DNA of 29,358 bases from a virus: IMG/VR virus record IMGVR_UViG_3300022752_004768, positions 1-29,358 of that record; one strand, 5' to 3'. The notes under the pieces are model-generated. The model searched no databases, was not told the DNA's origin, and saw only the letters and a program-made list of their open reading frames with translations. Of this stretch, positions 13,291 through 22,411 are shown piece after piece. The position numbers and the translations under genes were made by a program. Every line of letters starts with the position of its first letter. Position 1 is the stretch's first letter.

Positions 13291-13350
13291 ATGACGATAA
13301 GTATTATTTTAGGGTTTTTGGTTTATATTGGAATGTGCATAAAAAAATGA
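13291..13350 (+). CDS. 19-aa hydrophobic leader peptide upstream of dCMP deaminase
   Basis: This small frame encodes MTISIILGFLVYIGMCIKK, one hydrophobic stretch ending in two lysines, so a possible single-pass membrane microprotein. It begins exactly 6 nt after a TATAAT box and its stop overlaps the ATG of dCMP deaminase as ATGA. It could be a real microprotein or a translated leader that couples ribosomes to the deaminase start. Its small size keeps confidence moderate. Confidence 0.45.
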   Translation: MTISIILGFLVYIGMCIKK

Positions 13351-13769
13351 GAGCATCATTTGAGGACATGGCTATGAAAATAGCTGAAGCGGCAAGTCAC
13401 AGATCGGAAGATCCTTTTCAAAAAGTAGGAGTATCTATTTTAAATAAAAATGGTCGAGTATTAAGTGTTGGGTATAATGGTCTTAAGCCCAAAGATAAAC
13501 GAGATGACATTTTCTGGTCGGATAGACAAAATAGAAGAAAATATATTCTTCATGCAGAAACAAATGCATTATCTTGTATTACCAGATATGATGAACCCTA
13601 TCTATTGGCTTCCACACTTTTACCATGCTCATGTTGCGCTATCAATATAGCTTCATATGGAATAGAAAAAGTTTTATATTTGGAAGATTATGAAAATGAT
13701 TTATTTGCTCATGAAATATTAAAATTTCATAATATAGAATTAAAAAAATATGAATCAAATCAAATTTAA
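13347..13769 (+). CDS. dCMP deaminase (zinc cytidine-deaminase fold)
   Basis: This encodes 140 aa from ATG 13347; an in-frame GTG at 13335 is less likely because ATG 13347 couples to the leader ORF. The zinc site is 'HAETNA' (H69, proton-shuttling E71) and 'PCSCC' (C94, C97). 'DPFQKVGVSILNKNGRVLSVGYNG' is the family's N-terminal strand and substrate segment. It hydrolyses dCMP (or dCTP-derived dCMP) to dUMP, feeding dTMP synthesis. The next gene, a dUTPase-like protein, overlaps it by 20 nt. It is shorter than T4 Cd (193 aa) and lacks its inserted zinc segment, resembling compact bacterial/phage deaminases; a ComEB-like label is equivalent. Confidence 0.88.
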   Translation: MRASFEDMAMKIAEAASHRSEDPFQKVGVSILNKNGRVLSVGYNGLKPKDKRDDIFWSDRQNRRKYILHAETNALSCITRYDEPYLLASTLLPCSCCAINIASYGIEKVLYLEDYENDLFAHEILKFHNIELKKYESNQI

Positions 13770-14193
13770 ATCTTTGCATAATAAAGGAAAGAAACCTACA
13801 AATGAATATAAATCTGCAATATATAGTATTTCTAGCGGAGAAAGATGCTATATATATCCAGGTGAAAGAAAAATAATTAAAACATTCATAGAATTAGAAA
13901 TTCCAGAAGGATATTTTGGCATGATTCTACCTAGAAAAGAAAATTACATTAGGAATGGGCTATATGCATTTCAAGAGATTATATATCCACAAGATAAAAA
14001 AGAGTTGCTTTTGATGGTAACAAATGTTAACATTCCTAAAAGTCCATATATGATGACTGATAATGAAAGATTTTTAGGAGAAAGGTCTAAAATAGATGTT
14101 TACATAGGTGACAAAGTGGCAAATTTGATGCTAGTCCCTATATATAAATATATTTTTGATGACGGCAAGAAACAAGAAATTATCAATGAATAA
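13750..14193 (+). CDS. dUTPase-like fold protein with degenerate catalytic motifs
   Basis: This encodes 147 aa. Recognisable dUTPase/dCTP-deaminase family landmarks are 'SSGERCYIYPGERKIIKTFIELEIPEGYFGMILPRKENYIRNGLYAF' (motif 2, PRxxxxxxNGL) and 'IDVYIGDKVANLMLVPI' (motif 4 equivalent of G.RIAQL...P). Motif 1 Asp and the motif 3 'GVIDxDYRGEI' block are not recognisable; the corresponding 'EIIYPQDKKELLLMVTN' lacks the base-contacting and catalytic Asp/Tyr arrangement. It may be inactive, bind nucleotides, or act on a different substrate. It follows dCMP deaminase, whose product is dUMP, with 20 nt of overlap. Confidence 0.6.
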   Translation: MNQIKFKSLHNKGKKPTNEYKSAIYSISSGERCYIYPGERKIIKTFIELEIPEGYFGMILPRKENYIRNGLYAFQEIIYPQDKKELLLMVTNVNIPKSPYMMTDNERFLGERSKIDVYIGDKVANLMLVPIYKYIFDDGKKQEIINE

Positions 14194-14692
14194 ATTAATA
14201 TTTTTATATATTCTATTTATTTCATCTTTAAGCTTTGGACAAAGAGAAGAAGCCACAATAACAAGAACATTTGGAACTAATAGCGTATACCCACGTCAAT
14301 TTCCATCAATGACTGTAAGAAAGATGAACGAAAATGAATATTGGCTTTATGACAGTTTAAATACAAATACAATTTTTCATAGAATTTTCCCAACATACAT
14401 TGTGAGAAAACAAAATACTTATACATCATCTCAACAATGGGGAGTTTATAGAACAACTGGTACAAACAGTGTTTATCCCCAACAATTCCCAGATAGATAT
14501 ATTTCCGATTTGAATTGGAGAAATAACAAAAATGTTACTGAAAATCAATATCCAAAAAACAACAATATTAGAAATGAAAGTATTTCAATAAAAAATATTT
14601 CTACAGAAAATGAATCTATTTCTGCAGCAACTTATACCAGAGCTTTAAGAAGCGATAAGAAAGCTGCTTACGCACCAGAAAGTCCAGAATAA
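14186..14692 (+). CDS. Predicted secreted protein with three internal repeats
   Basis: This encodes 168 aa from ATG 14186 (overlapping the previous stop by 8 nt); the in-frame Met at 14156 would place the signal peptide internally. Residues 1-18 form a signal peptide (MNKLIFLYILFISSLSFG|Q). Three related units follow: 'FGTNSVYPRQFPS' (29-41), 'NTNTIFHRIFPT' (59-70) and 'TGTNSVYPQQFPD' (91-103), the first two each followed by a 'xxVRKxN' segment, spaced about 29-33 aa. The C-terminal ~60 aa are polar and Asn/Ser-rich. It is probably exported to the periplasm or surface. Role unknown; superinfection exclusion or envelope binding are possible but unsupported. Confidence 0.6.
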   Translation: MNKLIFLYILFISSLSFGQREEATITRTFGTNSVYPRQFPSMTVRKMNENEYWLYDSLNTNTIFHRIFPTYIVRKQNTYTSSQQWGVYRTTGTNSVYPQQFPDRYISDLNWRNNKNVTENQYPKNNNIRNESISIKNISTENESISAATYTRALRSDKKAAYAPESPE

Positions 14693-15033
14693 TGATTGAT
14701 GCATTTTTGATCTCATTTTTTAATACTTTGATACTTTTGATTTGGTTTAAAACAGAAGCATTTATAGAGTATTTTAGATATTCTCCTTTAATAAATAAAA
14801 TTATTAAACAATACGATAAATCTATAAACTCTGGAATTAATAATAATTTTATTAATTTTTTATCTTTAAATTACAATTCTTTTCTTACAAGGTTAATAAC
14901 ATGTCCATTTTGTTTAAATTTTTGGATTTCTGTTGTTACGACTTTTTTTGTTGGATATAGATTTTTTGCTTTAATTTATGTTACAAGTTTGATATACTAT
15001 AAGATAGTAAATATACTTTCAAAATATGAGTGA
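14692..15033 (+). CDS. Membrane protein with CPFC-LNFW motif (DUF1360-like)
   Basis: This encodes 113 aa. Hydrophobic segments lie at about 3-20 and 74-107, separated by a polar 25-70 linker. 'LITCPFCLNFWISVV' (about 68-82) is a CxxC followed by aromatic residues at the start of a membrane helix, as in DUF1360-like small membrane proteins of phages and Bacillus. It is likely an inner-membrane protein. ATG overlaps the previous stop (TAATG). The CxxC might be redox-active or bind metal. Function unknown. Confidence 0.6.
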   Translation: MIDAFLISFFNTLILLIWFKTEAFIEYFRYSPLINKIIKQYDKSINSGINNNFINFLSLNYNSFLTRLITCPFCLNFWISVVTTFFVGYRFFALIYVTSLIYYKIVNILSKYE

Positions 15034-15331
15034 AATAGATAAAAATAAAGATATTCTTTTGGTTGAACAACATTGGGAACTTGTGGTAATGATACATTCT
15101 TACAATTTAAAAGGAAATGATGGACAGTTGACTGTTTATAGCGATATTTATCAAAAAGTTGGAGAAAAACCAGATTGCCCATGTAATAAAAATAATATTG
15201 CATTTTTAGATAATATAAAAGATAATTTAGATAAATTTTTACTTCCAGAAGAAATAAACAAAATAAAAAAAGAAGAACAAGCCAAGATTGTTCACGTAAA
15301 AAAGAAAGATGGATCTATTTTAGAATTCTAA
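15026..15331 (+). CDS. Hypothetical protein
   Basis: This encodes 101 aa. It overlaps the preceding membrane-protein gene by 8 nt and ends 1 nt before the IMPDH/GMPR-like gene, so it is part of one operon. 'KPDCPCNKNN' gives a single CxC pair; the rest is polar, with mixed strand and helix, ending 'KIVHVKKKDGSILEF'. I do not recognise the family. No signal peptide or membrane segment. Confidence 0.55.
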   Translation: MSEIDKNKDILLVEQHWELVVMIHSYNLKGNDGQLTVYSDIYQKVGEKPDCPCNKNNIAFLDNIKDNLDKFLLPEEINKIKKEEQAKIVHVKKKDGSILEF

Positions 15332-15332
15332 T

Positions 15333-16442
15333 ATGAAAATACATTTTGAAGAAGGACTAGGATACGATGATATTGCTTTATTGCCAAATTTTTCAAATAT
15401 TATTTCTAGAAAAGAAGTAAGTACTATCACAAAAATTTCTAAAAATAAATATATTGATATTCCTATCATTCTATCTCCTATGGATACAGTTTCTTCAGTT
15501 AAATCTTGTATTAAAATTAATCAAATTGGTGGTGCTGGAGTCCTTCATAGATTTATGACTCCAGAACAGCAAGCTAAAAAAGCAAAATATATTAAAGACG
15601 AAAGTAATTTTTGTATTAATGCGATTGGATTAAAAGATTTTAAAAATAGGATTGAGACAATCTCAGCATATACAGATATTTTCTTTTTGGATACAGCGAA
15701 TGGATTATCTCAAAATGTAGAAGACTTTCTTATTTGGTATAAACAATCTTCATATAAGCAAGATATTATTGTTGGAAATACTTTGACCAAAGAAAGCGTA
15801 TATAGACTAGCTAATCTAAAGGCGGATGGTTTTAGGCATCTTATTGGTCCAGGCAGTATGTGCCTGACTCAAATTAAGACAGGTATAGGTTGTCCTAGCG
15901 TTACAGGATTATATTACGCATGGAAAGCGGTTAGAAATCACCACTTAGCAACTCTTGATTATTTCAGACATGAAAATCCAAAAGAAGAAGATCGTCCAAG
16001 TATATTAGCTGATGGTGGAATTAGAAATCCTAGAGATTTAGTCAAAGCTATAGCAAGCGGTGCGGATAGCGTAATTTGTGGCAGAATTTTTGCTGGTCTA
16101 GCAGATACAGTTGATGAAGATAATATTATTGAAAAAGATGGCAAGAGATATGCAAAATATAGAGGTATGGCAAGTAAAGATGTAGTTGAGGATTACGAAT
16201 TACATGACGGAACAAAGAAAAATCTTTTTGTAGAAGGAGATAAGACTTTAATTCCATTAATAGAAGATAAAACAATAGAAGATGTTGTCTATGACTTTGC
16301 CAACGGCTTAAGAAGTGCGATGAGTTATCTTGGATTCAGATCTATAGAGGACATGCGGGGTGGAATTTGGAATAATAAAATAAAAGTAGTAAAAGTAAGC
16401 GCAAATAGTATGTACGAGAGCTTTGCTCATGGTAAAATATAA
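15333..16442 (+). CDS. IMP dehydrogenase / GMP reductase family enzyme without CBS domains
   Basis: This encodes 369 aa forming one TIM barrel: 'LGYDDIALLPNFSN', 'PIILSPMDTVSS', 'GGAGVLHRF', active-site loop 'IGPGSMCLTQIKTGIGCPSV' (Cys177, Thr179), 'ILADGGIRNPRDLVKAIASGADSVICG' and 'YRGMASK'. The bacterial-IMPDH CBS pair is absent; length is close to GMP reductase (~347). The 'KTGIG' after the catalytic Cys is typical of GMPR, whereas the GMPR Glu of 'GMSSE' is Lys here and 'FRSIEDMRG' near the end resembles IMPDH. GMPR would make IMP from GMP using NADPH; IMPDH would do the opposite step to XMP. The call between them is open, with a lean to GMPR because PurA follows. Confidence 0.85.
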   Translation: MKIHFEEGLGYDDIALLPNFSNIISRKEVSTITKISKNKYIDIPIILSPMDTVSSVKSCIKINQIGGAGVLHRFMTPEQQAKKAKYIKDESNFCINAIGLKDFKNRIETISAYTDIFFLDTANGLSQNVEDFLIWYKQSSYKQDIIVGNTLTKESVYRLANLKADGFRHLIGPGSMCLTQIKTGIGCPSVTGLYYAWKAVRNHHLATLDYFRHENPKEEDRPSILADGGIRNPRDLVKAIASGADSVICGRIFAGLADTVDEDNIIEKDGKRYAKYRGMASKDVVEDYELHDGTKKNLFVEGDKTLIPLIEDKTIEDVVYDFANGLRSAMSYLGFRSIEDMRGGIWNNKIKVVKVSANSMYESFAHGKI

Positions 16443-16744
16443 TGATAGGAATAGATATCGTAAATATTAAAAGATTCAAAAATAAATCTATCAAATTTTT
16501 TAATAAAATATTTTCAAATCAAGAAATTTTAGAATCTAATAGTAATCTATACGAAAAACTTGCAGGAAAATGGGCAGCAAAAGAAGCAGCATTTAAGGCG
16601 GGATTAAATTACGCAAATCATGAGATAGAAATCCTAACTTTTGATAAAAAACCACACATTATAATAAATGGAGAAAAAACAAATCATATGGTATCAATAA
16701 GTCACGATAATGATTATGCAACAGCTATAGTTTTGAAAATATAA
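16442..16744 (+). CDS. acpS: Holo-[acyl-carrier-protein] synthase
   Basis: This encodes 100 aa, near the usual ~120-aa size. The AcpS signature 'IGIDIVNIKRF' carries the metal-binding Asp (D5), and 'LAGKWAAKEAAFKA' carries the Glu (E48) of the WAxKEAxxKA motif. The C-terminus 'HMVSISHDNDYATAIVL' matches the SxSHxxxxAxA block. It transfers 4'-phosphopantetheine from CoA to the Ser of an apo-ACP. An ACP gene is 1.9 kb downstream on the same strand. It begins inside the preceding stop (TAATG). Minor shortening relative to bacterial AcpS is in loops. Confidence 0.92.
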   Translation: MIGIDIVNIKRFKNKSIKFFNKIFSNQEILESNSNLYEKLAGKWAAKEAAFKAGLNYANHEIEILTFDKKPHIIINGEKTNHMVSISHDNDYATAIVLKI

Positions 16745-16749
16745 TAAAT

Positions 16750-17409
16750 ATGCATGATTGTCTTATCATTTCAGATGTTCATTTAGGGTCTAAAGATTGT
16801 CGTCCAGATAAACTTTTAAAAATCTTAAAAAAAATTAAAGCTAATAAAATAATTATTGCTGGAGATTTATTTGATCATCATAATCTGCATAGACTCAAAA
16901 AAGAACATTGGAAAGTTTTATCTAAATTAAGAAAACTATCGAAAAGATGTAAAATAATTTATTTGATTGGTAATCATTGCTTTCTTAAAGCAGAATTTAT
17001 GAGTATTCTTTTAGGGTTTAAATGTTGCAATGATCATATATTAGAATATGGTAATACAAAGATTTTAATTGTTCATGGTGATATTTTTGATATATATTTC
17101 ACAAAATATAAATGGATTACAAATTTAATTATTAAATCTTATTATTTTATTAGAAAATATACTCCTTACGCAGATGATTTTTTTAAAATTTTTAAGAGCC
17201 AAACAAATGATTTTGTTGAAAAAAGTTCTGATGTTAAAAAAAATGCTCTAAAATATATAGAATTAAATGGATATAATAAAATTATATGTGGTCATACTCA
17301 TGTAGCAGAAATATCAGATAAATATATAAACATAGGTAGTTTTTGCGAAACTAAATGTAGCTACGTCACTATTGAAAAAAATGGTAAAATATATCTAGAC
17401 TTTTGCTAA
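16750..17409 (+). CDS. Calcineurin-like metallophosphoesterase (LpxH/UDP-diacylglucosamine pyrophosphatase-like)
   Basis: This encodes 219 aa. All five metallophosphoesterase motifs are present: 'ISDVHLGS' (D9, H11), 'AGDLFDHH' (D39), 'GNHC' (N75, H76), 'IVHGD' (H109, D111) and 'CGHTHVAE' (H182, H184). The 'SDVHLGSKDCRPDKLLKILK' opening and a helical lid (~120-165) are LpxH-like, the UDP-2,3-diacylglucosamine hydrolase group of lipid A synthesis, though a nucleotide or DNA end phosphatase is possible. The residue after GNH is Cys rather than Asp/Glu. A short hydrophobic patch could give membrane association. It lies 5 nt after acpS, and PurA and ACP genes follow. Confidence 0.8.
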   Translation: MHDCLIISDVHLGSKDCRPDKLLKILKKIKANKIIIAGDLFDHHNLHRLKKEHWKVLSKLRKLSKRCKIIYLIGNHCFLKAEFMSILLGFKCCNDHILEYGNTKILIVHGDIFDIYFTKYKWITNLIIKSYYFIRKYTPYADDFFKIFKSQTNDFVEKSSDVKKNALKYIELNGYNKIICGHTHVAEISDKYINIGSFCETKCSYVTIEKNGKIYLDFC

Positions 17410-17424
17410 AAAATAGGATAATAT
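17396..17424 (+). promoter_or_regulatory. Sigma70-like promoter, -10 box 6 nt from ATG 17431
   Basis: TAGACT (17396-17401), a 17-nt spacer and TAATAT (17419-17424) precede ATG 17431 by exactly 6 nt. The -35 lies inside the last codons of the phosphoesterase gene. It would drive the small beta-barrel protein and purA. Confidence 0.45.
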
Positions 17425-17430
17425 ATAAAT

Positions 17431-17649
17431 ATGGAAACAAACATTAAAAAAGTAAAAATTAATATCTTAAAAAGAATGCTAGGTAAAAAAGTTTTTATTA
17501 TTACAAATTCTATTACTGAAGAAGGTTATTGTGGATTAGTCAATAGAGTAGTAGATCATGAGACTTTGAATATTATCAATGATAGAAAAGAGGAGAATGT
17601 ATCTATATTTAATGTAAGATCTCCAAGTAGACTTTACAACTGCGAATAA
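17431..17649 (+). CDS. Small conserved phage protein, probable SH3-like barrel
   Basis: This encodes 72 aa with 'KVFIITNSITEEGYCGLVNRVVDHETLNIINDRKEENVSIFNVRSPS', an alternating strand pattern ending in 'EVSMFDIR-PS'-type residues. Such proteins recur in aquatic T4-like phages beside metabolic genes. It is one codon boundary from purA (TAATG overlap), so it is translated with it. No catalytic residues recognised. Confidence 0.6.
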   Translation: METNIKKVKINILKRMLGKKVFIITNSITEEGYCGLVNRVVDHETLNIINDRKEENVSIFNVRSPSRLYNCE

Positions 17650-18638
17650 TGATAAAAAAAGTAGATATTGTTTTTGGTTTGTGCTGGGGAGATGAGGGCA
17701 AGGGGAAAATTATAAATGCAATAGCAGACAAATACGATTATATTTGTCGTTGGAATGGCGGTCCAAATGCTGGACATACAGTTTACTTAAATAATAAAAA
17801 ATATAAAACTCATATTATTCCTTGTGGAATTTTTCATAATAAAAAATGTGTTATTGGTCCAAATTGCGTTATTAACATAGATAAATTTTTTGATGAAATA
17901 GATTATCTTAATAAAGAAGGATTTGATACATCATTAATTAAAGTTAGTCCAAAAACACATATCATAACGGAACGACACATTCAATATGATTTAAAATATT
18001 TAAAACCTAAATTAGGAACAACAGGTCAAGGTATCGCACCAGCTTACTCAGATAAAATGCTTAGAATAGGAAAAATTGCTAAAAATTATTTAGATAAAAA
18101 GTATTTATGGAATGGAGAATTAGATGGAAATATTCTTTGTGAAGGTGCACAAAGTTTTTGGTTAGATATTAATTATGGAGATTATCCATATGTGACTAGC
18201 AGTGAAACCTTACCTTATGCTGCGTGTTCTTTGGGCTTTTCACCTAAATTAATTGATCAAATAATTGGCGTAGCTAAAATTTATGATACAAAAAGCGGAA
18301 TTGATCCATTATTTCCAGAATCTTTATGGAAAGATGAAGAACTTAATAAGATTATAGAATTTGGCAAAGAATATGGAACAACAACTGGAAGAAAAAGATT
18401 AGTTAATTGGTTAAATTTAAATAAACTCTTACATGCAGTTAAAGTCTCTGGAGTTACAAAGCTTATTATTAATAAATGCGATATTTTAGAAGAGATTGGG
18501 CCATTTAAATTAATTCATACAGCTCAAAACGAACAACCAATAAATTTTGAAAATTTCTATAAAATGAAGAATTATATATCTAATTTATTAAATTCTTATT
18601 GTGAAATTGTATTTTCTGGACATAAAGAGAATATTTGA
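17649..18638 (+). CDS. purA: Adenylosuccinate synthetase, compact form
   Basis: This encodes 329 aa. Conserved features: 'WGDEGKGK' (catalytic-base equivalent D15), 'GPNAGHTV' (H43), 'GTTGQGIAPAYSDK..R' (R139), 'EGAQSFWLDINYGDYPYVTSS', 'GTTTGRKR' (R248, R250) and 'NKCD' (K276, D278, GTP specificity). It joins aspartate to IMP with GTP, yielding adenylosuccinate. The protein lacks about 100 aa of bacterial PurA, mainly between R139 and EGAQ, making it like archaeal PurA and phage PurZ (2-aminoadenine) proteins. PurZ proteins carry Ser for the catalytic Asp; Asp is retained here, so IMP is the likelier substrate. The usual Arg of TTGRG is Gln, and the C-terminal GTP loop reads 'SGHKEN' rather than SGPDR. 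Confidence 0.9.
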   Translation: MIKKVDIVFGLCWGDEGKGKIINAIADKYDYICRWNGGPNAGHTVYLNNKKYKTHIIPCGIFHNKKCVIGPNCVINIDKFFDEIDYLNKEGFDTSLIKVSPKTHIITERHIQYDLKYLKPKLGTTGQGIAPAYSDKMLRIGKIAKNYLDKKYLWNGELDGNILCEGAQSFWLDINYGDYPYVTSSETLPYAACSLGFSPKLIDQIIGVAKIYDTKSGIDPLFPESLWKDEELNKIIEFGKEYGTTTGRKRLVNWLNLNKLLHAVKVSGVTKLIINKCDILEEIGPFKLIHTAQNEQPINFENFYKMKNYISNLLNSYCEIVFSGHKENI

Positions 18639-18644
18639 TATAAT
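18636..18644 (+). promoter_or_regulatory. Extended -10 promoter for the ACP gene
   Basis: TGA-TATAAT (18636-18644) is a TGn-extended -10 box. It ends exactly 6 nt before ATG 18651. The -35 hexamer is weak (CTGGAC-like), as expected when the extended -10 compensates. The TG overlaps the purA stop codon. Confidence 0.5.
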
Positions 18645-18650
18645 AATTAT

Positions 18651-18929
18651 ATGAAAACTGTAGATCAAGAAAAAATTAAAACATTTATAAAAAACGAACT
18701 TCTAAAAGAAAAAAGAGGAATAGAAATTAATCCCGAGACTATGCTAGAAGATCTTAATTTAGATTCATTTGCTCTTTTATCTATCGCATCTGAAATTGAA
18801 GACGAATATAATATTTGGTTAATTCAAAATGCTAAACAAATTGAAGAGATGAAATCTAGCATGAAAACATTTGGAGAATTTATTGATTTTTTAAATAAAA
18901 AAATAAACGATGTATCAAATACGAAATAG
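18651..18929 (+). CDS. Acyl carrier protein
   Basis: This encodes 92 aa, the size of ACP plus a short insertion. Helix I (about 5-20) leads to 'TMLEDLNLDSFALLSIASEIEDEYNI', in which S39 of the DS motif is the phosphopantetheine attachment site. 'FGEFIDFLNKK' forms the last helix. An acidic central helix is typical. The insert 'WLIQNAKQIEEMKS' before helix IV is longer than in FabD-type ACPs. The encoded AcpS upstream could modify it. Its acyl partner enzymes are not in this window. It overlaps the next gene by 20 nt. Confidence 0.9.
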   Translation: MKTVDQEKIKTFIKNELLKEKRGIEINPETMLEDLNLDSFALLSIASEIEDEYNIWLIQNAKQIEEMKSSMKTFGEFIDFLNKKINDVSNTK

Positions 18930-19230
18930 AAATGAGGCTAGGCCAAGATTATATCAACTAGCAAAATTTTATGGCAAATCTGAACAAGATCCCATATTAA
19001 ATAATTTAATAGATGTCTATTTTGCAAAACTTATGACAATGCCAAAACCACCAGAGAATAAACATAAGACTCAAACCTTACTGGAGCTATATAATGAATT
19101 GGATATAGATCCAGATATATTAGAAGATGGTTGGTGGAGATATAATTCTTATTATGTAGCTCACAATAGTATGTTTGGACATACAAAAAATGAATGGAAA
19201 AATCTAATTGGGTATATAACAAATGGCTAA
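18910..19230 (+). CDS. Hypothetical protein
   Basis: This encodes 106 aa. ATG 18910 lies inside the end of the ACP gene. Helical N-terminal half ('RPRLYQLAKFYGKSEQDPILNNLIDVYFAKLMT'); 'DILEDGWWRYNSYYVAHNSMFGHTKNEWKNLIGY' is aromatic-rich. I do not recognise the family. It is close to the ACP gene in an overlapping operon (8 nt overlap with the following gene). No membrane segment. Confidence 0.5.
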   Translation: MYQIRNRNEARPRLYQLAKFYGKSEQDPILNNLIDVYFAKLMTMPKPPENKHKTQTLLELYNELDIDPDILEDGWWRYNSYYVAHNSMFGHTKNEWKNLIGYITNG

Positions 19231-21375: not shown

Positions 21376-21662
21376 ACTGGGTAAAAATTCTTAATTTTAT
21401 TGATGGAGTTTTTCCTATCGAAGAGAAAAATATGAAATTAGGAACTTTGTATAAAATCAAAGGCGAGGAATTGCCATTTAGATATATTCAATATAGTCAC
21501 CTTAGAAAAGCAGATAAAAAATCTTTTCACTTTAAACATCATCAATTAAAAGAATATGTTTTTAAAGATCTTAGCCAAGTGGAAAGAGAAGCGACATCAG
21601 AAGAGGCGAGGCTATATAATTTAATAAAAGAGCACGTTAATCAAATCGATAGGAGAAAATAA
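21372..21662 (+). CDS. Hypothetical protein
   Basis: This encodes 96 aa: 'FIDGVFPIEEKNMKLGTLYKIKGEELPFRYIQYSHLRKADKKSFHFKHHQLKEYVFKDLSQVEREATSEEARLYNLIKEHV'. Strands followed by a terminal helix; several aromatic and basic residues. It is translationally coupled to its neighbours. I do not recognise it. Confidence 0.5.
   Translation: MNWVKILNFIDGVFPIEEKNMKLGTLYKIKGEELPFRYIQYSHLRKADKKSFHFKHHQLKEYVFKDLSQVEREATSEEARLYNLIKEHVNQIDRRK
21651..21655 (+). promoter_or_regulatory. Shine-Dalgarno site for the gene at 21662
   Basis: AGGAG sits 6 nt before ATG 21662, which also overlaps the preceding stop codon. It is a second example of SD use by an internal gene. Confidence 0.7.
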
Positions 21663-22411
21663 TGAAAAAAATATATTATTCTTGGATTATAGGCTATCCA
21701 AAGCAAGAGTATCAATCTTTAGTTTATCCATGGTATGAAGATTTTAAAAAAGCAGGCCCATTTCCAGAAGATTTTTTTAAACCACTATTAAAATCTATAG
21801 AGAATTATAATCAAGAATATCAACATTTTAAATGTCCAGCATTCCAAGAGTGGAATAGAAACATGTGGACAGTTAAACAGCCCTTTGATATAACATTTGC
21901 TTATTTAAAAGAAGCTAAAAAAATTATTCATTCTCAGTTAGGAGATGGATTTAAAGACTTTTTTCTTTTACATGAACCTACTAAAAATACAAATCATCAA
22001 GAAGCTCAATTTGCTTATCAAATTTTATTTTGGACTGAAGAAAAAAATATATGGATAGAAATTTATCCTCATCCCGAATTATCTCGTTTAAATTTAGATT
22101 TAGTTCCTGGCACTTTTTCTATATCGGATTGGACAAGACCAGTGTCTTTTGGTTTTAAAATCTTAGAGCCAGAAAAAGAAATTATATTAAAAAAGAATAC
22201 ATCTTTATATTATATAAAGTTTTTATCTAAATCAAATCCAAATGATAATTTTATTTTAGAAAATAAAAATGCTTCTGATGACTTGCTTGCAAAATTAAAT
22301 AAAGATATTAGTTTAAAATTTTATAATAAAAATGAATCATGGAGATTGATGAAATCAAGATCTGATAAATCAGAAAAGAAATGTCCGTTTTTTCATTTTT
22401 TTAAAAAATGA
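21662..22411 (+). CDS. Conserved phage protein, DUF6065-like, unknown function
   Basis: This encodes 249 aa. Motifs such as 'CPAFQEWNRNMWTVKQPFDITFAYL', 'NIWIEIYPHPELSRLNLDLVPGTFSISDWTRPVSFGF' and a terminal Cys-containing 'KKCPFFHFFKK' resemble a family of uncharacterised phage and bacterial proteins. The aromatic-rich beta pattern is unlike any enzyme I can name. Its stop overlaps the reductase start (ATGA), so they may act together. Confidence 0.6.
   Translation: MKKIYYSWIIGYPKQEYQSLVYPWYEDFKKAGPFPEDFFKPLLKSIENYNQEYQHFKCPAFQEWNRNMWTVKQPFDITFAYLKEAKKIIHSQLGDGFKDFFLLHEPTKNTNHQEAQFAYQILFWTEEKNIWIEIYPHPELSRLNLDLVPGTFSISDWTRPVSFGFKILEPEKEIILKKNTSLYYIKFLSKSNPNDNFILENKNASDDLLAKLNKDISLKFYNKNESWRLMKSRSDKSEKKCPFFHFFKK

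Follow-up and report, generated by a model that had tools for sequence, protein, structure and literature searches.

Introduction

Single acyl carrier proteins (ACPs) are established as putative auxiliary genes of phages, with examples in Erythrobacter R6L, Alteromonas R22Y, Vibrio R16F, and Rhodobacteraceae prophages carrying fabG-acpP-fabF, and two phage ACP families are represented by PHROG 5934 and PHROG 4154. Lists of auxiliary genes have included these ACPs for years, without a known cargo. In bacteria, the dedicated ACP IacP acylates SipB, a translocator of Salmonella pathogenicity island 1 (SPI-1) (PMC5279801). JamB and JamC form a desaturase-ACP pair, and JamABC and polyyne cassettes combine a fatty acyl-AMP ligase, a desaturase, and an ACP (PMC8406139). 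Here we analyze the IMG/VR record IMGVR_UViG_3300022752_004768 (hereafter the window, meaning the whole viral stretch of 29,358 bases, 28.6% G+C), which comes from an uncultured tailed phage and encodes an ACP in the same operon as an AcpS-type 4'-phosphopantetheinyl transferase. A phage-borne charging enzyme makes the question of cargo directly testable. We found no published report of a phage AcpS, or of a conserved AcpS-ACP pair, in the open-licence literature. It is likely that the window phage operates an acyl-carrier step of its own during infection, as do viral relatives found in three or more further genomic contexts.

An AcpS-ACP pair conserved among viral relatives

The original prediction had read positions 16442-18929 of the window as one module of AcpS, an LpxH-like phosphoesterase, and ACP. 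All three open reading frames (ORFs) are intact where it had located them, yet two genes that it omitted, u17431 and purA, are interleaved among them (Table 1). By family, the product of 16442-16744 is an AcpS-type phosphopantetheinyl transferase, and its transfer activity is predicted. It scored 45 bits against PF01648 (cut-off 25) and 55.1 bits against the pantetheine-transferase domain TIGR00556 (cut-off 45.35), and the solved structures nearest to it are AcpS enzymes. Residues D5, E48, and K52, which cover the metal-binding Asp and Glu as well as the KEA..K motif, line up with E. coli AcpS, and every aligned viral copy has them. The phage protein thus has the superfamily and the catalytic Asp, Glu, and Lys in common with bacterial AcpS, but it is shorter (100 versus 126 aa in E. 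coli) and misses the cut-off of the housekeeping holo-ACP synthase equivalog TIGR00516 (36.3 versus 59.8 bits), so we file the gene as AcpS-type and not as the housekeeping enzyme.

The ACP is marginal by sequence, with 21.2 bits against PF00550 (cut-off 20.8), and remains below the housekeeping ACP equivalog TIGR00517 (27.6 versus 70.45 bits). Its AlphaFold2 model (predicted local distance difference test (pLDDT) 81) has helices at residues 6-16, 39-53, 61-70, and 74-91. S39 opens helix II, and D38-S39 at the start of this helix is invariant in 13 aligned viral ACPs, which bears out the earlier placement of the attachment serine. The leading structural matches of the model are nearly all acyl or peptidyl carrier proteins, with Z up to 9.8, a moderate score for a helical bundle, and with no Foldseek E-value below 0.001; the uniformity of the match list carries the point, not the score. 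The modelled fold confirms the predicted assignment of the 18651-18929 product as a four-helix carrier protein.

Among 43 viral records reached by ACP or terminase similarity, nine besides the window bear AcpS, and profile scans added more. Within the window clade, 13 records (window included) carry AcpS and 12 carry ACP; the only AcpS-bearing clade record lacking ACP, G011, stops inside purA, before the ACP position. The order of the cassette is constant across the 13 records, apart from inserted or missing genes. With all contexts pooled, ACP is present in 22/23 AcpS-bearing viral records and the remaining one is cut before ACP; these records include near-duplicates and are therefore not independent, so the four contexts weigh more than the count. 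Median pairwise ratios of nonsynonymous to synonymous substitution rates (dN/dS) were 0.17 for AcpS and 0.12 for ACP, indicating purifying selection, although the values are rough with dS near saturation. None of the copies used for this estimate contained an internal stop. These results speak against decay of the two genes. The proposal of a self-sufficient phage-encoded AcpS and ACP, conserved together and not decaying, is well supported at the sequence level, whereas the phosphoesterase does not hold its place as a member of the module.

All clade records are fragments and none is a complete genome. The absence of the cassette from G016 is unusable as evidence because this contig ends exactly at the stop codon of the IMPDH-like gene (L110, 1-1110), right before the expected acpS. 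The contig ranges of G014 and G015 put their ends at this position too. These ends probably reflect trimming of the records at a gene boundary, with the rest possibly trimmed as host.

AcpS-bearing records fall into four genomic contexts, the window clade and three others. G045-G047, which are related phages by several syntenic proteins, encode in a row a dUTPase, a membrane protein, a small gene, AcpS (30-32% identity), a 75-aa protein, and a canonical-looking ACP; the IMPDH-like gene, the metallophosphoesterase (MPE), and PurA were not found in these three records. G051-G054 hold AcpS and ACP. In the two of these that were read, G052 (L187, 3285-6300) and G054 (L189, 3289-6300), AcpS lies on one strand, and the opposite strand carries a radical SAM protein, a membrane fatty acid desaturase, an ACP whose gene overlaps that of the desaturase, and a 209-aa protein. 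G052 also encodes an endolysin. The third set, G044, G055, and G056, carries AcpS, ACP, and a ketosynthase, and the parts of G044 and G056 that were read contain roughly eight to ten genes resembling membrane desaturases (one checked against the family, the rest assigned by eye). Two lineages other than the window clade thus pair AcpS-ACP with membrane desaturases, one of them also with a ketosynthase, and these contexts raise the possibility that certain phages produce modified acyl chains themselves.

The stretches in the phage-like contigs G044 (L168, 1172-16499) and G056 (a record of 112.9 kb; L206, 5692-17006) bring together desaturase-like genes, a ketosynthase, ATP-grasp and GNAT-like proteins, ACP, and AcpS. 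They have the appearance of a viral cluster for acyl-chain biosynthesis and recall polyyne clusters, although no ligase was found. We regard G056 as a phage because tail-fibre and baseplate-like genes are present.

A proposed specialized carrier and its candidate partner

Compared with E. coli AcpP, the window ACP keeps Asp35-Ser36 and Glu47, whereas Asp38 is replaced by Ala and Glu41 by Ser. The acids of AcpP helix II help enzymes of fatty acid synthesis (FAS) to dock, and the loss of these two points to a specialized carrier instead of a duplicate of the housekeeping ACP of the host.

The gene u18910 follows ACP in every uncut clade record. Between G003/G005 and G049/G007, identities are 96-98% for PurA, 93-97% for MPE, and 77-93% for AcpS, compared with 46-48% for ACP and 32-35% for u18910. 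A long form of u18910 (106-110 aa) accompanies one ACP type and a short form (81-90 aa) the other, and the short form with its ACP type occurs in two backgrounds, G049/G007 and G050. ACP and u18910 travel together and are replaced as a block, and AcpS evidently copes with both ACP types, judging by these identities. The u18910 model is all-helical (pLDDT 84) and had no fold match among PDB structures or viral models. We hypothesize that u18910 is the most likely ACP partner or adaptor in the clade.

We favor, with a probability of roughly 55%, a private two-gene carrier system in which a specialized holo-ACP would hand cargo to a phage partner. AcpS, given its family and intact catalytic residues, would transfer the 4'-phosphopantetheine arm from host coenzyme A to S39 of ACP. 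Holo-ACP would then be loaded from host metabolism with an acyl group, or with another group held by a thioester, and would deliver it to the phage partner, for which u18910 appears the likeliest candidate. MPE and the purine genes would share the operon without being needed by the AcpS-ACP pair.

Several observations weigh against this proposal. The ACP of G045-G047 keeps the normal Asp38, so the altered helix II surface is not general. Linkage alone could explain the co-replacement of ACP and u18910. AcpS is nearly unchanged where ACP has been swapped, and any specificity between the two must therefore be loose. Finally, neither an acyl-loading nor an acyl-using enzyme was found in the window clade: no ketosynthase, AMP-binding ligase, PlsC-type acyltransferase, or membrane desaturase turned up in the records searched, among them 47 kb of G012 and 91 kb of G016, a weak negative because the records are fragments. 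The acyltransferase, ketosynthase, or desaturase that the original prediction had proposed to look for elsewhere in the genome accordingly did not turn up in these fragments.

Beyond the window clade, AcpS and ACP might be a portable viral biosynthesis kit of several phage lineages. An acyl chain would be loaded and then either modified by phage desaturases or a ketosynthase or, in the window clade, passed to u18910 as a novel type of partner, yielding a lipid, an acylated protein, or a small molecule peculiar to the phage. We advance this extension only tentatively.

The private carrier system has to be weighed against an ordinary auxiliary metabolic role, in which the phage ACP supplements that of the host and so boosts the synthesis of fatty acids and phospholipids, with AcpS charging ACP when host AcpS is limiting. 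This role has been applied to phage ACPs in print, some roseobacter prophages hold fabG-acpP-fabF, and with no other acyl enzyme found in the clade, host FAS would be the sole user. It is nevertheless rather unlikely here: helix II is without two acids of E. coli AcpP, the score against the housekeeping ACP model is low, and two divergent ACP types coexist with one AcpS and a co-varying partner gene. A regulatory or decoy function, in which the phage ACP binds host ACP-binding proteins or soaks up coenzyme A arms and so redirects host physiology without cargo, would also account for the lack of a cargo enzyme among the clade records. Bacterial ACPs are known to bind non-FAS proteins such as SpoT and MukB. 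We consider this function improbable, since selection across the clade has kept AcpS, which a pure decoy could do without.

The neighboring phosphoesterase

MPE directly follows acpS, as had been noted, and belongs to the metallophosphoesterase family (PF00149, 48.2 bits, cut-off 21.5). Its description as LpxH-like did not survive comparison with the family models. Both LpxH equivalog cut-offs were far missed (49.2 versus 134 bits and 33.3 versus 190.35 bits), and the protein has GNHC in place of the GNRD motif, whose Arg binds substrate in LpxH. It is closer to a Sinorhizobium meliloti protein (30% identity, 78 bits) than to E. coli LpxH (25%, 39 bits). The S. meliloti gene adjoins genes for an N-acyl-homoserine lactone (AHL) synthase and a LuxR regulator, and it is probably PlcP (SMc00171), the phospholipase C that remodels lipids under phosphate starvation. 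PlcP acts on phosphatidylethanolamine (PE) and phosphatidylcholine (PC) in S. meliloti (PMC4796936). The phage MPE has the fold family and metal ligands in common with LpxH and PlcP alike; its identity to the probable PlcP stands at 30%. If MPE acts on lipids at all, it more likely breaks down phospholipids than helps to make lipid A.

MPE is also separable from the carrier pair. It is gone in G050, where AcpS and ACP remain, which marks it as a neighbor only. Homologs are also present in Pelagibacter phage Mosig and Synechococcus phage S-SRM01, in both cases away from any annotated AcpS or ACP. A scan of genome contigs with MPE gave only weak, mostly partial matches. An LpxH-type enzyme serving a lipid A module was rejected on the model cut-offs, the lack of GNRD, and this separability; enzymes for the synthesis of lipid A, phospholipid, or lipoyl products, at which the original prediction had hinted, were not found. 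The joint action of AcpS, ACP, and phosphoesterase in lipid A or phospholipid metabolism is thus very improbable, even though AcpS and MPE are neighbors in 12/13 clade records (in some of them separated by one or two genes) and the PlcP likeness makes phospholipid breakdown conceivable, since the LpxH signatures are wanting, MPE is absent from G050 and was not found in G045-G047 where AcpS and ACP are present, and the homologs in the two other phages have neither gene annotated close by.

Operon layout, start signals, and nucleotide metabolism

The minus strand of the window carries terminase, portal, and PhoH-like genes (the last assigned by eye). The plus-strand operon spans ~13.3 to 19.9 kb and encodes, in order, dCMP deaminase, dUTPase, u14156, a DUF1360-like membrane protein, u15026, an IMPDH/GMP-reductase-family enzyme, AcpS, MPE, u17431, PurA, ACP, u18910, and small genes. 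Within the cassette, u17431 is missing in G048.

Table 1. Positions of the cassette features in the window.
Feature	Position	Strand	Remarks
IMPDH/GMP-reductase-family enzyme, 369 aa	15333..16442	+	PF00478, 226.7 bits; directly upstream of AcpS
AcpS-type 4'-phosphopantetheinyl transferase, 100 aa	16442..16744	+	PF01648, TIGR00556; D5, E48, K52 intact
Metallophosphoesterase (MPE), 219 aa, PlcP-like rather than LpxH	16750..17409	+	PF00149; separable neighbor of AcpS-ACP
u17431, 72 aa, conserved small gene	17431..17649	+	62-81% identity among relatives
PurA, short adenylosuccinate synthetase, 329 aa	17649..18638	+	PF00709, 277.5 bits; catalytic Asp kept
TATAAT hexamer, 6 nt before ACP start	18639..18644	+	possible promoter of leaderless message; kept in 11/11 relatives
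ACP, 92 aa, attachment serine S39	18651..18929	+	PF00550 marginal; AlphaFold2 carrier fold
u18910, 106 aa, all-helical, candidate ACP partner	18910..19230	+	overlaps ACP end; co-varies with ACP types

ACP had also been credited with its own extended -10 promoter. The sequence TGATATAAT is present at 18636-18644, upstream of ACP, and its TATAAT, directly before the ACP ATG, is conserved; its TG, however, belongs to the stop codon of purA and persists in only 3/11 relatives. The extended motif TGNTATAAT was counted 5 times in the window, where 4.45 occurrences are expected. An extended -10 promoter is thus not above chance and was rejected. TATAAT lies upstream of 8 starts in the window compared with 3.3 in shuffles (largest shuffle 10), a mild excess, and the hexamer before ACP is a possible, putative promoter of a leaderless message. 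Shine-Dalgarno-like sites are scarce (8/40 gene starts against a background of 8%) and TATAAT is mildly enriched 10-14 nt before starts; the translation signals of the host may be unusual.

Window positions 13335-18638 place dCMP deaminase, dUTPase, a GMP-reductase-like enzyme, and PurA in the same operon. The product of 15333-16442 misses the equivalog cut-offs of both IMPDH and GMP reductase; aligned with E. coli GuaB and GuaC, it lacks the DRYF of GuaB (flap Arg-Tyr pair) and has a GMP-reductase-like flap. A 2-aminoadenine (Z) genome, considered on account of the neighboring purA, was rejected: PurA scored 95.7 against a PurZ cut-off of 300 and keeps the catalytic Asp15. Together, the four enzymes could convert C and G nucleotides of the host into T and A nucleotides, which would suit a genome of such low G+C content. 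Given this nucleotide-gene theme, adjacency in the operon is not evidence of a shared pathway.

A protein family of ~245 aa shifts position around the cassette, lying between AcpS and MPE in some relatives and after u18910 in another (L002, 5345-6088; L004, 5358-6092; L108, 8864-9592; L131, 8554-9303). The product of window positions 21662-22411 resembles this family by eye and has no Pfam match. A carbamoyltransferase (PF02543, PF16861) is encoded near the G012 cassette (L108, 3695-5188), with a similar ORF in G048 (L131, 11418-12299).

Comparison with known systems

The window ACP had no tblastn match to the phage ACPs named above and no PHROG match, and AcpS queries likewise had no match among PHROGs. 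Two AcpS queries retrieved no convincing AcpS from the isolate phage collection. The only annotated isolate-phage case, in Microcystis phage MaAM05 (MW495066), sits among glyS, secDF, and smc and looks like a bacterial contig; the stretch at 118861-143238, annotated as phage, holds scpAB as well and is probably bacterial sequence. Matches in Listeria and Staphylococcus were unannotated contigs, and a literature match to an "acyl carrier protein" of phage SP-15 concerned a reductase.

Three described systems come closest. IacP offers a working analogy as a non-housekeeping ACP that serves one partner protein; it is bacterial, its own AcpS is not stated in PMC5279801, and u18910 in the phage is only a candidate partner. 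Like JamB-JamC, G051-G054 and G044/G056 set a membrane desaturase beside an ACP. They differ from JamABC in the addition of AcpS, and no AMP-binding ligase was found in the records searched; the window clade differs further in that no desaturase was found there. The single ACPs of other phages share with the window phage a small ACP with an attachment serine in a phage genome, but no AcpS was found described for them in the open-licence literature. What is new relative to known phage ACPs is a paired, self-charging version that comes with AcpS.

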